A DNA stretch of 64,000 nt. It comes from a virus. A model generated the notes under the pieces. The model saw only the letters and a program-made list of their open reading frames with translations. It searched no databases and was not told the origin of the DNA. Position numbers and translations under genes: made by a program. Positions 39,869 through 46,004 of this stretch are shown here, one piece after another (within the stretch, counting starts at the first letter, position 1; each line of letters starts with the position of its first letter). The stretch lies in the IMG/VR virus record IMGVR_UViG_3300031718_000001, positions 101,086-165,085 of that record. One strand, 5' to 3'.

Positions 39869-40495
39869 ATGGCCCATGCCCAGTCCCTGCCCCCGACGGA
39901 TACCCAGTCCGGCCTGCCGTTCTTTGAGCGCGTCTCCCACGGCTACTCGATGCACCAGGTGGATGACTACATCCGCCAGGCGCTGGCCCGGCTGCATCAG
40001 CAGGAGCAGGATCTCCTCGGCCATGCCGAGCAGCTCGCGACCGCCGCGGTGCACAGCCCGCAGGCCGAGCAGATGATTGACGAGCTGATGAAGCTGGCAC
40101 TCGATGAGATCCTCGGCCAGAAGGCAGCCGCCATCACCGAGGCCGAGCAGTTCCTGTCGTCCGCCCGCCAGGAGGCGGAGCAGATCATCGCCGCGGCCAG
40201 GGACGAGTCGGAGTCCATGGTCTCGGGCGCCCGCGAGCAGTCCGGTTCGCTGCTGGCCGATGCCCGCAGCAGTGCCCGGAAGATGCTTGACGATGCCGCG
40301 AGCCGGGTGGATGAGGCCGAGCAGCACATCGCCGCGCTGGCCAGGACCCACGAGGAGACGCTCTCCCGCCTGGATGAGATCAGCCGGGTGACTACCCGGC
40401 TGCTCGGCTCGGAGCGCGAGCGCGGTCTGCCCGGGTCGGTGTCCGGCGCTGTCCAGGCGAACGCTCCGGCCCAGCTCCTGGCAGCCCCCGAGTAA
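39869..40495 (+). CDS. DivIVA-like coiled-coil protein
   Basis: 208 residues from ATG 39869 with GGAGGT upstream. Residues 18-43 (PFFERVSHGYSMHQVDDY then IRQALARL) match the DivIVA/Wag31 N-terminal membrane-curvature motif, F-x-x-x-x-x-G-Y-x-x-x-x-V-D-x-(F/Y)-(L/I). Residues ~45-185 are a long charged coiled coil (AEQFLSSARQEAEQIIAAAR). In actinobacteria DivIVA marks growing poles and hyphal tips and recruits wall synthesis and transfer machinery. A phage copy next to an FtsK/Tra-like ATPase could target that ATPase, or phage DNA, to the pole, or hijack tip growth. Both are inference; the motif itself is visible. Confidence 0.7.
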   Translation: MAHAQSLPPTDTQSGLPFFERVSHGYSMHQVDDYIRQALARLHQQEQDLLGHAEQLATAAVHSPQAEQMIDELMKLALDEILGQKAAAITEAEQFLSSARQEAEQIIAAARDESESMVSGAREQSGSLLADARSSARKMLDDAASRVDEAEQHIAALARTHEETLSRLDEISRVTTRLLGSERERGLPGSVSGAVQANAPAQLLAAPE

Positions 40496-40586: not shown

Positions 40587-42554
40587 CTAAGCCGCCTGGT
40601 CATCCTGCTTCGGCCCGTACTTCCACCGGCTGTAGTCCGGGTTGTGCACGATGCCCTGGGTCTCGTCGTCCTTCAGCCACCGCTGGACGGTCTCCCGCGC
40701 GACGGTGATCTTCTCGTCGGCCAGCCACTGGTGGAGCTGGGCGGGGGTCGCGCCCCGGGCACCGCGGCCGGCGAGCAGCTCGCGCATCCGCTTCCGTGCC
40801 GGATGCAGCTTGCTCTCCGGGTCCTCGAAGCCGGCGACGATCGCCTCGAACTGGCTGGTGTCCACGTCGGCTACCGCGGTCGCCGTCCGGCCGCTGCCGC
40901 TGAACATCCGGGCCAGTGACGGCTGCTGGGCGGCGCGCACCCAGCGCTCGGTGTAGTCGCTGCCCAGCGAGTCGGCGGTGAGCTTGTCCAGCCGCGGCCG
41001 GATCGACCCGACATCCAGTGTGGTCTGGTAGACAGGGCAGCCGGCAACGCAGCCTTCGTTCTCGTTCTCGCTGCACTCACCTTCCAGGTGGTCGTGCAGG
41101 AAGAACTTGCTCATCATGGAGGCCTTGCGGCCGACCGCGGCCACGCCGACGCCGGGAGTGCTGGCCATCACCGAGAGCTGCTTCTGGGCCATGTGCGCGT
41201 CCGGGATGACATACCGCAGGTCTCCCTCGGTAGCCGCGCCCAGGGCCAGCCGCAGCTTGCACAGGGACTTGAGGTTGCCGCTGCCGGCGAAGTCCACGGT
41301 GCCCCGCTGGGTCGCCCAGATCGAGGTGACCGCTTCCGACCGGGCGAGCTGGACGCCCTCCTCGGCCATGTGGATGAACTGCCGGTTGGTGACGGCATCC
41401 TCGCCGACATCCTTGCGGGTGCCGCGGTCGCCGCCGAACAGGACCGACATCTCATCGCACAGCAGGATGATCTGGGGCATCGAAGCGCTCGGCGTGATCT
41501 TGGATCCGCCGATGCCGGAGTTCATCCTGGTCTCGATCGACTTCTTGAAGGCCGTCATCATGAGGGCGGCCTCCTCGCGGGTGGTGGCTACCCAGTCGAG
41601 CGCGGGCGCCTCGGCGTTGCCCTCGCACCAGGCCTGGAGCCAGGCCTTGACCGTCCGGCCGCCCTTCATGTCGATGGCCCAGATCACGGTGTCCACGCAG
41701 TAGGAGAGCTGCGCCAGGATCACGTTGATCAGGTTGCTCTTGCCGGCGCCCGTGGTCCCGACGATGTACATGTGCAGCTCGCGCAGCGAGATCTTCAGGA
41801 CCGTGCCGTCCTCCTGGACGCCGATCGCGAAGGGCTCGTTGACCGTGCTGGCGTGCAGTTCCTTCTTCAGCGTCGGCGAGTCGATGAGTACTTCATGCTC
41901 GCGCAGCCGCAGGATGATGTCGCCGGAGTGCTCGCCGATCGAGAACTCCACCGCGCCGGGCTTGAGCCGCAGGATGACCGCGATCTGCCCGGCGCAGCCC
42001 TCCAGGGTGGAGAGGGTGATCTTGCCTGACCGGGGGAGCTGGAGCCGGAGCACCCGGCCGGAGCGCTCGCTGGCCAGGCCCAGGACCTGGACGCCGGAGC
42101 AGCCGACCTCGCGGAACATGTGCTCGAACTTGGTCATCTCCTCCTGGAGGTCCTCCTCCGGCGGAGCGCCCGCGGTGAGTTCCTTCGGGGCCGCGGGCTG
42201 GTCGGGGACCAGCCCGGACAGCGCGGCGTGGGCCGAGAGCGGGGCGCAGATGATCATCCCGATGATCCACGCGGTGACCACCCCGGAGTCCCACAGGCGG
42301 GTCATCTCGGCCCACAGGGTCCACAGGCCGAGGTAGAAGCCGAAAAAGGCAATGAATGACGAGATCGCGCCGCGGCCTGTGGACGCCCACACCGACAGGG
42401 CAATGACGATGCCGAGCATCATCTCCACGAGCGGCATAAGCCACAGCGGCAGGCCCGTGCCGGGGAGCACGGCCACGGCTGCGAGCGCGAGGGAACCCAG
42501 GAGGACGACCGTCTCCACGGCGTGCTCCCAGATCCTGCGCTTCTTGTGGCTCAA
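40587..42554 (-). CDS. Membrane-anchored FtsK/SpoIIIE (Tra)-type DNA translocase
   Basis: 655 residues from TTG 42554, which has GGGAGA upstream. The N-terminal ~115 residues hold about four hydrophobic helices. The motor domain has Walker A GTTGAGKS (residues 266-273), Walker B QIILLCDEM (361-369) and a Q-R-G-T sensor region (SIWATQRGT). The last ~70 residues (RMRELLAGRGARGATPAQLHQW, VARETVQRWLKDDE) look like a winged-helix module, comparable with the DNA-recognition gamma domain of FtsK and TraB. Such ATPases pump double-stranded DNA across membranes; Streptomyces plasmids use one for conjugation between mycelia. Divergent from the DUF2637 gene across an iteron-rich control region. Confidence 0.8.
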   Translation of the reverse strand: MSHKKRRIWEHAVETVVLLGSLALAAVAVLPGTGLPLWLMPLVEMMLGIVIALSVWASTGRGAISSFIAFFGFYLGLWTLWAEMTRLWDSGVVTAWIIGMIICAPLSAHAALSGLVPDQPAAPKELTAGAPPEEDLQEEMTKFEHMFREVGCSGVQVLGLASERSGRVLRLQLPRSGKITLSTLEGCAGQIAVILRLKPGAVEFSIGEHSGDIILRLREHEVLIDSPTLKKELHASTVNEPFAIGVQEDGTVLKISLRELHMYIVGTTGAGKSNLINVILAQLSYCVDTVIWAIDMKGGRTVKAWLQAWCEGNAEAPALDWVATTREEAALMMTAFKKSIETRMNSGIGGSKITPSASMPQIILLCDEMSVLFGGDRGTRKDVGEDAVTNRQFIHMAEEGVQLARSEAVTSIWATQRGTVDFAGSGNLKSLCKLRLALGAATEGDLRYVIPDAHMAQKQLSVMASTPGVGVAAVGRKASMMSKFFLHDHLEGECSENENEGCVAGCPVYQTTLDVGSIRPRLDKLTADSLGSDYTERWVRAAQQPSLARMFSGSGRTATAVADVDTSQFEAIVAGFEDPESKLHPARKRMRELLAGRGARGATPAQLHQWLADEKITVARETVQRWLKDDETQGIVHNPDYSRWKYGPKQDDQAA

Positions 42555-42688
42555 GTTCTCTCCCTGGACTGGTGTTCTTTAACATCAGGTGCTCTACGTA
42601 CAACCAGGAAAATATCAAGTTCATTGCTAAGCAGTCAGCAGTGGTACCCTCCGCTCACCCTCCGAGACCCCGGGAGGCGGCTCACACC

Positions 42689-42860
42689 TGTGATCCGGAT
42701 GTGTGACTGTGATCGGCGCTTAGCAAGGTTCCTTGCTGTGACGCAGGTGTGATCCGGTCACACCGGTACAAATCACACTTGTGACTTACCGCAGGTCAGA
42801 AGGTGTGACTGTGATCCGCGAGGCAGGAAACGCCCGGGAAACGGCACGCCGGGGCTGTGA
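42689..42860. repeat. TGTGA iteron cluster
   Basis: By hand count, TGTGA or its complement occurs 11 times in 172 bp (9 direct, 2 inverted). GTGTGACTGTGATC occurs twice (42701, 42803), and GGTGTGA-TCCGG-TCACACC (42747-42765) is a perfect inverted repeat. Such clusters are typical of plasmid origins, transfer regions or multi-site operators. Confidence 0.75.
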
Positions 42861-42871
42861 CCGGTAGACGA

Positions 42872-42891
42872 ATACAGCTTTTCTTGATAAT
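42872..42891 (+). promoter_or_regulatory. Conserved promoter/operator element, copy E
   Basis: ATACAGCTTTTCTTGATAAT, one mismatch from consensus. TAGACG-17-TAATCT can be read as -35 and -10 for the DUF2637 gene at 42929, leaving a 37-base leader with a GAGGAGG ribosome site. Confidence 0.7.
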
Positions 42892-42928
42892 CTGAATCAA
42901 CTCCGCACCTACTACCGAGGAGGCCAAG

Positions 42929-44056
42929 ATGACCGCCACGGAATCCGTCAAGGCAAACTGGCGTGCATACGCTGCGGCTATCCCCGTGGTCTTTGTCAAC
43001 ACGACCGCGTTTATCGGCCAGTTTGCTTTCCTCCAGGCCCACGTGCGCTGGATTATCCCGGGCATCGTCCTGATTGCCGTCTCGATCGAGAGCGTCGGCA
43101 TCTACTACGCCTTTCACGCCCACCTGGCGATGCTGGCCAACGACTCCGCGATGCGCCTCAAGCTGGCTGCCTACTCTTTCGCGGCCGTGATCGGCGTCAT
43201 GAACTACAGCCACTATGCGGCGCCGCACTGGCGGCCGACCGCGCTGGCCGTGATCATGCTCATCGCCTCGTCCATCTCGCCCTGGCTGTGGGGCGTGCAC
43301 TCACGCCGTGCCAGCCGCGACAAGCTGATGGCACGCAAGCTGGTCGATGAGCACGCTGTCCGGCTCGGCGCCAATCGGTGGACGTGGCACCCGGCACGCT
43401 CGATCCGCGTGACCCGCTGGTCTGCCTGGCACGGCGTCAACGACCCGGCACGCGCCATCGCCCACTTCGCTGACCGGTACGGCACGGCCGACACGGATCC
43501 CGGCGCGCTGGACCGGGCAGCGCTGCGCGTGCCAGCCGCTGTGCCAGCCAGCGAGCCAGAGGCTCTTCCGCTTGGCGCGGCCGTGGCACACGCCATCGAG
43601 AGCGTGCCAGTCGCTGCGGCGGCCATTTCCCCCGTGGCACAGGCCGTGCTCGGCGCGGGTGGCACGCTGGCGAACGGCCCGGCGGCCGTCGTTCCCGAGC
43701 CAGCCGCACAGGTGCTCTCCGCTGATGCCCACCTGGAGGCCGAGGCCAGCCTGTCCGGAGGCAAGCCCACGGCGGAGACCATCGCGAGCGTCGAGCTGTG
43801 GCTGATGGGCGTCGGGCTCGATGACCTGCCCTCTGTCCGCGCCGTGGCGCGGAAGCTGGGCGACCAGAACCAGCGTCGCCTGGCCAGGAAGCTGCTGGAT
43901 GCCCGCGTGGCAGCCGGTACCTCGTTCGTCTCGGCACCCCCGAGCGGACAGATCAATGCCAGCGGGAGCCGCACCCAGGTCAGTGACCAGGGCAACGGAC
44001 TGATCGCCTCCCCGCTGGCCTACCGCCCAGGAGGTGTAAATGGCGGAGACAACTGA
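42929..44056 (+). CDS. DUF2637-like four-TM membrane protein (plasmid spread type)
   Basis: 375 residues from ATG 42929 with GAGGAGG upstream. Four hydrophobic helices lie within the first ~120 residues (IPVVFVNTTAFIGQFAFL, IIPGIVLIAVSIESVGIYYAF, YSFAAVIGVMNYSHYA, ALAVIMLIASSISPWLWGV). A basic W-x-W-H-P segment and RWSAWHGVNDP follow, then a Pro/Ala-rich linker and a C-terminal helical domain (LDDLPSVRAVARKLGDQNQRR). This matches the DUF2637 type of membrane protein common on Streptomyces plasmids, where such proteins help plasmid spread. It overlaps the next gene by 17 bases. Its 3' half begins the TGGCAC repeat cluster. Confidence 0.7.
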   Translation: MTATESVKANWRAYAAAIPVVFVNTTAFIGQFAFLQAHVRWIIPGIVLIAVSIESVGIYYAFHAHLAMLANDSAMRLKLAAYSFAAVIGVMNYSHYAAPHWRPTALAVIMLIASSISPWLWGVHSRRASRDKLMARKLVDEHAVRLGANRWTWHPARSIRVTRWSAWHGVNDPARAIAHFADRYGTADTDPGALDRAALRVPAAVPASEPEALPLGAAVAHAIESVPVAAAAISPVAQAVLGAGGTLANGPAAVVPEPAAQVLSADAHLEAEASLSGGKPTAETIASVELWLMGVGLDDLPSVRAVARKLGDQNQRRLARKLLDARVAAGTSFVSAPPSGQINASGSRTQVSDQGNGLIASPLAYRPGGVNGGDN

Positions 44057-45455
44057 GGAGGCAGAGCTGCCGCCGCAGCCCGCTCATCAGGGAGAATACC
44101 GGCGGTCCCCCGCGTCGCGATGGCGGCGCCGGGGGACCGCCAGTGGCTTGCTGACGGCTGGCGGCAGTCTCATGCTTCACATGCTAGGAGGGCCTATGTC
44201 CCTCCTGATCGGCGGCGGCGTGGTGCTCGCCGGAGGAGGCGGGCTGGCCCTGTGGCACCTGCCGAGGATCCGTCACCACCTCAATGACGGCCGCCGGGAG
44301 AAGAAGACCCGCACCAGGACCCGCACCCGCGGGAGCCGGGGCGGGTCACGCGGTGCCAGGGCGGGCCGGGGCGGCCGGCTGTTCGGGGGAGCTGGCACGC
44401 GCCGGGGTGGCACGGCACGCTCTCCTCTGGGCGGCCGTGCCAGGGGTGGCACGGCACGCCGTGCCACCGGGCCGGGTCGCGGGCGTGCCAGCGGCACAGG
44501 AGCCCGGCGCGCTGGCGCGGCACGCGGGCCGCTGGCACGGCGCGCTGGCACGGGCCGTACCGGCACGAGGTCTGGCACAGCGCTCAGGCGGCGCGGTGGC
44601 GCGGCACGTTCCGGGGCTGGCACGGCACGCCGCCGGTCTGGTGGCACGGGAGCGGGGCGCCGCTTCGGACGTACCGCGCCGGCACGCGCCGGCACGCGGT
44701 TCCGTCCCGGCTCGCGCCGGGGCGGGGCATACGGCCGCCGTGGCACAGCGGGCAGCCGCTGGCGTCGCGGTCCAGGTGGCCGGCACGGCCGGACTCGTCC
44801 CGGCAGCCGGGCTCGTCCGGGCGGCCGGGGTACGCGGGCGTACGGACGCCGGTTCGGCATGTTCGGCCGTCGCCGGTCGATGCCGCCGCCCAGGATGCGC
44901 GCTCGCCGGACCAGGAGCGGCCGGGGTGCCGGCTCAGGCGGCGGTCGCCGTCTGGGCTCGGGCCGAAGGATGGGTCGCCGCCGGTTCCTGCTCTTCGGCA
45001 AGCGCAGGCCGGTACGTGCCAGGGTGCGGCGCCCGGCAGCTCATGGCCGGGGCCGGCACGCGGCTGGCGCGCGGTCGAGAATGGGCCGGTTCCGTGCCGC
45101 GCGCTGGCGCCTCCGCAGGCCTCCGGGCAAGTGGATCCCCCGGTTCCGGCGCACCAGGAGTGGCACCAAGCCGATCCGGATGAAGACCGACTTCCGTCGC
45201 GTCCGCGCGATGGGACGCCGGTACCGGCGTGCCAGGTCGCATCTGGGCCGCGCCAGGCGCAGGTTCCACGCTGCCCGGCGCAGGCGTGCCACCTGGCGTG
45301 TCACGCGCCGGTTCTTCCACCGGCTCACCCCCGCCGGCATGCGAGCCAGGCTGGCACGCCGGTTCGGGCACCGGGTGCGGACACGCCGCATGGGAAGGCG
45401 CATGGGCGGCGCGATACTAGGTTCCTTGCTATTCTGGAAATGGCACAGGAGGAGG
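43330..45455. repeat. TGGCAC/GTGCCA motif cluster embedded in coding DNA
   Basis: About 29 copies of TGGCAC or GTGCCA were counted by eye over ~2.1 kb, against one or two expected at this base composition. They run through two genes, in both orientations and more than one reading frame, so amino-acid composition alone does not explain them. They could be recognition sites for the adjacent FtsK/Tra-like ATPase. Confidence 0.65.
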
Positions 45456-46004
45456 CGGGCACCAGGTCGGCACGGCGCTGGCGCAAAGCCAGCCACGCCT
45501 GGCGTGAAGTACCGGATCCGGCCTCCGGGGCCAGACCCGCACGACAGCTCAATGCCTCGTCCGGCAGCGGCAGCGGGTCACCGGGAGCCGTTCCCGGGCC
45601 GGTTCGGTGTACCGACAGGGACCAGCTACCCTGCACGACCATCAGGAGGACACAGTTCCATGGCATCACCAATTCAGGATGCGGCCGAGGCCGTTACCGC
45701 GGGGTTCGCCGGGTTCCACCCGGAGAACGCCGCGCAGCTCCGCGGCATGTTCGACGACATGCCGGGGTTCTTCGAGGAGCTGGCCAGTGGCGTAGCCCGG
45801 CTGGCCGAGAAGTTCGACTCGGAACTCCCGGTTGACCGCAGGGTCGCCGAGGGCGTCCGGGAGATGGTCAGCGCGCTAGCCGGCCTGGGCGACCAGGCCA
45901 ATGAGCTGAACGGCCTGTTCAAGGCTGCCCACGAGACCGAGCTGAAGCGGCTCGACGAGCCGCGTCCGCAGGAGGAACTCTGGGACGTGCGCAATAACGA
46001 GTAG
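44040..46004 (+). CDS. Very Arg/Gly-rich membrane-anchored protein with a separate C-terminal helical domain
   Basis: 654 residues from ATG 44040 (AGGAGGTGTAA upstream). Residues ~36-75 are hydrophobic and Gly-rich (GLLTAGGSLMLHMLGG, SLLIGGGVVLAGGGGLALW) and probably span the membrane. Residues ~85-470 are almost entirely Arg, Gly, Ala, Thr and Ser, an extraordinarily basic region able to bind DNA without sequence specificity. Residues 541-654 form a normal acidic helical domain. AGGAGG at 45643-45648 before ATG 45660 suggests that this domain is also made alone. The protein lies between the DUF2637 and ArdC genes, so a role in handling DNA at the membrane is inferred. The homolog family was not recognised with certainty. 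Confidence 0.65.
   Translation: MAETTEEAELPPQPAHQGEYRRSPASRWRRRGTASGLLTAGGSLMLHMLGGPMSLLIGGGVVLAGGGGLALWHLPRIRHHLNDGRREKKTRTRTRTRGSRGGSRGARAGRGGRLFGGAGTRRGGTARSPLGGRARGGTARRATGPGRGRASGTGARRAGAARGPLARRAGTGRTGTRSGTALRRRGGAARSGAGTARRRSGGTGAGRRFGRTAPARAGTRFRPGSRRGGAYGRRGTAGSRWRRGPGGRHGRTRPGSRARPGGRGTRAYGRRFGMFGRRRSMPPPRMRARRTRSGRGAGSGGGRRLGSGRRMGRRRFLLFGKRRPVRARVRRPAAHGRGRHAAGARSRMGRFRAARWRLRRPPGKWIPRFRRTRSGTKPIRMKTDFRRVRAMGRRYRRARSHLGRARRRFHAARRRRATWRVTRRFFHRLTPAGMRARLARRFGHRVRTRRMGRRMGGAILGSLLFWKWHRRRRAPGRHGAGAKPATPGVKYRIRPPGPDPHDSSMPRPAAAAGHREPFPGRFGVPTGTSYPARPSGGHSSMASPIQDAAEAVTAGFAGFHPENAAQLRGMFDDMPGFFEELASGVARLAEKFDSELPVDRRVAEGVREMVSALAGLGDQANELNGLFKAAHETELKRLDEPRPQEELWDVRNNE
45660..46004 (+). 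CDS. Probable internal-start product of the 44040 gene (C-terminal domain alone)
   Basis: In-frame ATG 45660 has AGGAGG 11 bases upstream and gives 114 residues (MASPIQDAAEAVTAGFAGFH). The domain is helical and acidic, ending RPQEELWDVRNNE. I recall similar small proteins in Streptomyces plasmid transfer regions, but this was not checked. It could regulate or cap the full-length protein. Listed separately because the ribosome site is clear. Confidence 0.5.
   Translation: MASPIQDAAEAVTAGFAGFHPENAAQLRGMFDDMPGFFEELASGVARLAEKFDSELPVDRRVAEGVREMVSALAGLGDQANELNGLFKAAHETELKRLDEPRPQEELWDVRNNE

Follow-up and report, generated by a model that had tools for sequence, protein, structure and literature searches.

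The window analysed here covers 64 kb of the 165,085-bp record of a large actinobacterial virus; since the final ~126 bases of this record are the same as its first ones, the assembly is probably complete. At positions 42682..42860 it holds a dense array of TGTGA repeats on both strands, comprising 12 copies of (A/G)(C/G)TGTGA(C/T), nine on the plus strand and three on the minus strand. Eleven of them lie within 42689-42860, exactly the number that the initial annotation had counted in these 172 bp, and the twelfth, on the minus strand, is at 42682. The sequence noted there as repeated twice is GTGTGACTGTGATC, a doublet with 6-bp phasing found on the plus strand at 42701..42714 and again at 42803..42816. 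The array also contains two TCACA-N2-TGTGA pairs and, as that annotation had claimed, the perfect inverted repeat GGTGTGA-TCCGG-TCACACC with a 5-bp centre (42746..42764). A further inverted repeat described as nearby, AGCAAGG-TT-CCTTGCT, is located inside the array (42722..42737), and AGCAAGGTTCCTTGCT was likewise confirmed. The second GTGTGACTGTGATC doublet is preceded on its 5' side by GCAGGTCAG (42791-42799), the GCAGGTCA core of which is largely kept in five genomes.

Such a density is far above expectation: ~0.2 TGTGA would be expected in this stretch from the window, versus 11 present (12 with 42682), and the maximum per 179 bp was five across 200 first-order Markov simulations. As the window contains only 28 TGTGA in total (versus 82 expected from dinucleotide shuffles), 12 of the 28 sit in 0.3% of the sequence. 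We do not take genome-wide TGTGA avoidance as a sign of site selection, since the depletion is mild (observed/expected 0.64 and 0.60) and other 5-mers, such as TGTGT, are more depleted. Pairing of the second doublet with the neighbouring promoter into a hairpin was also rejected, as no consistent fold emerged beyond shuffles.

The array separates two divergent genes. To its left, on the minus strand, lies a gene for a 655-aa TraB/FtsK-like DNA translocase (40587..42554). This protein combines hydrophobic helices at its N-terminus with a motor of the FtsK/HerA type and, at the C-terminus, a predicted winged helix (residues 585-646) whose recognition helix reads VARETVQRWLK. The structure model, with a mean pLDDT of only 54 (about 63-76 in the winged helix), places helices at 4-113 and, within 585-646, three helices and two strands, and the motor fold matches TcpA (E 1.8e-12) and FtsK (5.6e-12). 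By this model, the protein has the N-terminal helices, RecA-like motor and C-terminal winged helix of an FtsK/TraB-type membrane translocase, the N-terminal helices being, as judged from sequence, the likely membrane helices. Its best curated name is plasmid TraB (NCBIfam NF041214), at 31.8 bits (E 5.5e-8), far below the 800-bit cut-off of this family, and five of the six aligned members match NF041214. By sequence we class it as TraB-like, outside the NF041214 equivalog. It is closer to Streptomyces plasmid proteins (E 2e-34) than to phage proteins of the named collection (3e-15).

To the right of the array, on the plus strand, a gene for a DUF2637-like membrane protein (42929..44056) is followed by one for an R/K-rich basic membrane protein (44040..46004). 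The structure model of the former confidently shows a three-helix HTH-like domain in the C-terminal part (residues 282-331). The Pfam model of DUF2637 (PF10935) left the window protein unmatched and hit one of the six aligned proteins (1.4e-5), and a Foldseek search with the structure model returned nothing significant. Family searches with the basic protein gave no match; by position and character it corresponds to the basic protein that TraB modules encode. Finally, a DivIVA-domain coiled-coil protein (39869..40495, plus strand; Pfam DivIVA 6.1e-9, over cut-off) is encoded by a gene converging on that of the translocase, and a similar coiled-coil protein occupies the same spot in G006, a genome of the window family. 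With this neighbour, a link to poles or septa is attractive, if unproven. Elsewhere, the phage encodes a small MerR/BldC-like DNA-binding protein (L036:6716-6970, record 86716-86970; HTH_17 1.4e-13). Of two giant proteins that look like polyvalent phage proteins (L032:11507-15598 and L032:6661-11517), one combines a rifampin ADP-ribosyltransferase-like domain (Arr-ms, 2.9e-15) with a NUDIX domain, and the other matches ParB_N weakly.

Non-conservation in close relatives had been named as grounds for abandoning the original reading. Six further genomes (IMG/VR 3300031823_000001, 3300050821_005779, 3300050821_010487, 3300036790_000425, 3300025916_000008 and 3300005458_000014) carry the array at the orthologous position, and all keep the divergent ftsK/DUF2637-like pair with TGTGA repeats between, their FtsK proteins being 42-49% identical where measurable. 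The site consensus across these relatives is R[CG]TGTGAY, and six of the seven genomes have an exact copy of the TGTGACTGTGAY doublet, the version in 3300025916_000008 being degenerate. A common layout recurs in several of them: minus-strand sites come first, the doublet follows after about 31-32 bp, and another 46-47 bp on, at the promoter, is the last site. Two other genomes, G002 and G003, carry the DUF2637-like gene, with no detectable ftsK and no array. The pattern GGTCA..TGTGACTGTGAY was discarded as a specific tag, with matches in at least 119 stretches, mostly by chance.

Whole-genome scans of G000, G001 and G006 (window family) and of a fourth phage genome, G011, found TGTGA doublets with 6-bp phasing in the array only. 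Another reading is that a cluster of sites for a host regulator (CRP-like, MtrA-like or BldC-like) lies here by chance. CRP half-sites resemble TGTGA, and CRP requires TGTGA-N6-TCACA, a pattern absent from the array, whose sole palindrome of this kind has a 5-bp centre. BldC is described as binding direct repeats (PMC5859096), and G000 does encode a MerR/BldC-like protein. With the array unique to one place per genome, we consider a chance cluster of host sites highly improbable.

The last TGTGA of the array belongs to a copy of a rightward phage promoter (42856..42893, plus strand; ATACAGCTTTTCTTGATAATCT), in which TGTGA at about -44 precedes a putative -35 (TAGACG), a 17-bp conserved spacer and a putative -10 (TAATCT). 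The promoter-like motif aATACAGSTTTTCTTGMTAANNT occurs in about 24 copies in G000, 22 in G001 and 21 in G006 (in the window, for example, at 42873-42893, 15113, 46071, 48651 and 49842). Many copies are directly 5' of genes, and the motif is probably the main promoter class of the phage. At the array it reads TTGATAA, versus TTGCTAA in 22 of the 24 G000 copies and 20 of the 21 G006 copies. We do not infer an activator from a degenerate -35, since the element here, TNGAC(A/G), is not clearly weaker. Downstream of the promoter motif, a GCAAGGAAC-like word is repeated in 5' leaders (e.g. record 34018, minus strand, and 149736, plus strand), and the array holds an inverted repeat related to it.

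These features define the main rival of the reading that we favour below, namely a multi-site operator, at which a phage or module protein bound to the TGTGA sites would control both divergent promoters. Possible readers are the translocase itself and the HTH domain of the DUF2637-like protein. The array of the window family does lie between divergent promoters, the classic place of an operator, which counts against a loading site for the translocase. In addition, G000, G005 and G006 have a TGTGA directly next to the -35 of the rightward promoter, the spacing of 46-47 bp from doublet to last site recurs in several genomes, the array promoter is a variant of the genome-wide motif, and the HTH-like domain of the DUF2637-like protein is kept in array carriers of the window family while divergent in G002 and G003. 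However, G001 and G007 have no site abutting the promoter, and none of the ~23 other promoter copies is accompanied by a TGTGA cluster.

Carriers outside the window family provide a further view of where the array may lie. Motif scans of viral contigs, conducted without use of proteins, led to G011 and to Streptomyces phage Hiyaa, both of which encode FtsK relatives (E 3e-46 and 4e-32, respectively). In the 45.7-kb G011, nine TGTGA within 200 bp separate two convergent genes at their 3' ends, and downstream of them follow a DUF2637-like protein (a label resting on character, not on a family match), a basic protein and FtsK. The Hiyaa operon encodes, in order, a membrane protein, a small protein, a basic protein and FtsK, and its array (five hexamer steps in one run, one of them degenerate) is inside the module, just 5' of the basic-protein gene; Keanu and Galactica show the same arrangement. 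These locations, between convergent genes in G011 and inside the module in Hiyaavirus, argue against a simple promoter operator. Moreover, the DUF2637-like protein of the array-bearing G011 lacks the HTH motif, and this domain was therefore rejected as a common reader.

TGTGAC tandems also exist without FtsK: among 12 further contigs from the scans, tested together, an FtsK match was obtained only in Hiyaa and G015, and G012-G014, G016, G017 and G019 have TGTGAC tandem repeats without detectable FtsK. Likewise, four apparently related GC-rich contigs (L222, L231, L267 and L269) carry three to five TGTGAC in tandem beside repeated tttgccat words, with FtsK undetectable, and represent a different use of the TGTGAC word. 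Several other candidates were set aside. In P1312, five TGTGA in 200 bp straddle the end of ftsK, and it was not counted as a carrier since only one TGTGA lies in the gap 3' of ftsK as cut. The dense TGTGA loci of two lower-GC contigs (L230 and L258) look like simple microsatellites, and the tandem repeat of L245 (GC 0.63) has no detectable FtsK.

The distribution of carriers also weighs on the idea that the phage uses these repeats as iterons of a replication origin. After detrending, GC skew reaches its minimum about 10 kb (G000), 8 kb (G001) and 3 kb (G006) away from the array, although gene orientation is a confounder of skew; in G000 and G006 the surroundings of the array rank among the most AT-rich stretches, but the very highest AT content is found elsewhere in G000, G001 and G006. 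Replication genes are found downstream, whereas no Rep-type initiator was recognised nearby in searches that were not Rep-directed. Since array and TraB module go together in phages of 45-165 kb whose backbones differ, an origin appears quite improbable.

We then compared the repeat word with the recognition helix, by aligning FtsK C-termini and scanning intergenic DNA for periodicity to obtain tandem words. A tandem window just 5' of the basic-protein gene or beside the DUF2637 gene topped the intergenic DNA in most of the plasmid modules that yielded one, and such a window ranked first in nine of the annotated loci. Plasmid modules of the same kind have tandem arrays near the same place, with other words. 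The helix RET(V/I/L)xRW (RETxxRW) goes with TGTGA in the window family and Hiyaavirus; [ST]RQ[AS]VS[KA]WFA with GTTGAC in NA02950 and MMBL 11-1; SDTA[IV]Q[NK]WFA with NTTGG in S. anulatus, S. atratus and S. albidoflavus; APRTV[SG]GWL with GCGAGG in S. uncialis and pFRL3; and TRQAVGDWL with TGACGCAA in pFQ12. Hiyaavirus and the window family occupy separate clades of the motor tree (23-26% identity), with the helix RETxxRW and the word TGTGA common to both. Conversely, the GTTGAC and NTTGG plasmid clades are sisters (53-58% identity), yet differ in both helix and word.

From these sequences, the repeat word appears to track the recognition helix of the C-terminal winged helix of the translocase, a match that was found post hoc, with a repeat caller not blind to the helix. 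Plasmid members within a helix type have motors 72-88% identical, so that the independent evidence comes from few lineages. There is also one exception, as G011 combines a TGTGA array with the helix GQKAVYRHL; in addition, one of five window-family helices reads RES instead of RET. NBC_01353, with an SDTA helix, was left out of the word pairing (its gap is unresolved), and ZL12, PIS136 and pTH1 showed no clear array. The TGACGCAA array of Frankia pFQ12 (L299:6940-7080) and a GCGAACC array of Kitasatospora fiedleri plasmid 3 (L030:9165-9320), directly 3' of the FtsK or DUF2637-like gene, are candidate clt loci of their plasmids. An operator alone leaves both the G011 position and the helix-repeat match unexplained, and we consider it unlikely as the full explanation; however, an operator role may coexist in the window family, given that the last site abuts the promoter in G000, G005 and G006.

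Known systems offer a precedent. In pSVH1, helix alpha3 of the C-terminal wHTH of TraB reads repeated 8-bp motifs, and clt loci differ among plasmids while holding multiple short direct or inverted repeats (PMC3583192, PMC5133688, PMC10191066). Like these loci (PMC3583192, PMC5133688), the window array gathers short direct and inverted repeats beside the gene for a membrane translocase of FtsK/TraB type ending in a wHTH, and the repeat word differs per element. Described Streptomyces clt/TRS words are GACCCGGA in pSVH1 (absent from the window array and present twice in G001), TGACACC (four copies) in pWTY27 and CCGCACASS (nine copies) in pJV1; the TGTGAY of the window, with its 6-bp phasing, is none of these. 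Unlike those loci, the window array lies in a large virus genome, between divergent genes, and its role in transfer is putative. In the FtsK gamma/KOPS system, the C-terminal winged helix of a DNA motor reads short oriented words scattered over chromosomes. A winged helix at the end of a DNA motor and short words are common to both cases, their reading being predicted in the window, where the words, unlike KOPS, form one cluster in both orientations. The plasmid-phage pZL12 has the same three-gene order, namely membrane protein (73c), large protein (72c) and FtsK (71c), which are probably its described transfer genes. It differs in that its ftsK is flipped relative to that of the window phage and in that ZL12 has no clear repeat array. 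The window phage in turn lacks integrase, recombinase and ParA among the families tested, and no integrase, serine recombinase or ParA family was found in four genomes.

The initial annotation had offered an origin, a transfer locus or a multi-site operator. The transfer locus is best supported, owing to the TraB-like module, the changing position of the array around this module and the word tracking the recognition helix; the operator is kept as the main rival and the origin finds weak support. We thus propose, with moderate confidence, that the array is a clt/TRS-like recognition and loading site of a phage-borne TraB/FtsK-type dsDNA translocation module. What the sequences document is the array, its conservation, its presence with the module in unrelated phages, its shifting position and the helix-word match. 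The winged helix at the C-terminus of the membrane-anchored translocase would read TGTGAY hexamers, and tandem and inverted units would let several subunits or hexamers assemble on phage DNA. With the DUF2637-like and basic proteins, the motor would then transport phage DNA through a septum or membrane, as TraB and Spd proteins of Streptomyces plasmids do. The phage might gain from spread of its DNA through septa, tip localisation or segregation.

A broader scenario is conceivable, though on balance doubtful: large actinobacterial phages would be equipped with all parts of a plasmid-type module for conjugation or spreading (a TraB-like motor, membrane proteins of DUF2637-like and basic character, a DivIVA-domain neighbour and its own clt), moving phage DNA through hyphal septa or tips before lysis, and the TraB modules of phages and plasmids would follow a readable helix-word code. 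The helix-word match would also allow clt prediction for FtsK/TraB modules annotated only as 'hypothetical' or 'DNA translocase'. These ideas are directly testable, as carriers are in culture (Keanu and Hiyaa on S. lividans, Galactica on S. mirabilis). Streptomyces and their relatives grow as long multicellular hyphae, and plasmids move between their compartments. Thus, if the proposal is true, a phage pumping its DNA from compartment to compartment, as a plasmid does, could infect a colony from within, without ever leaving it.
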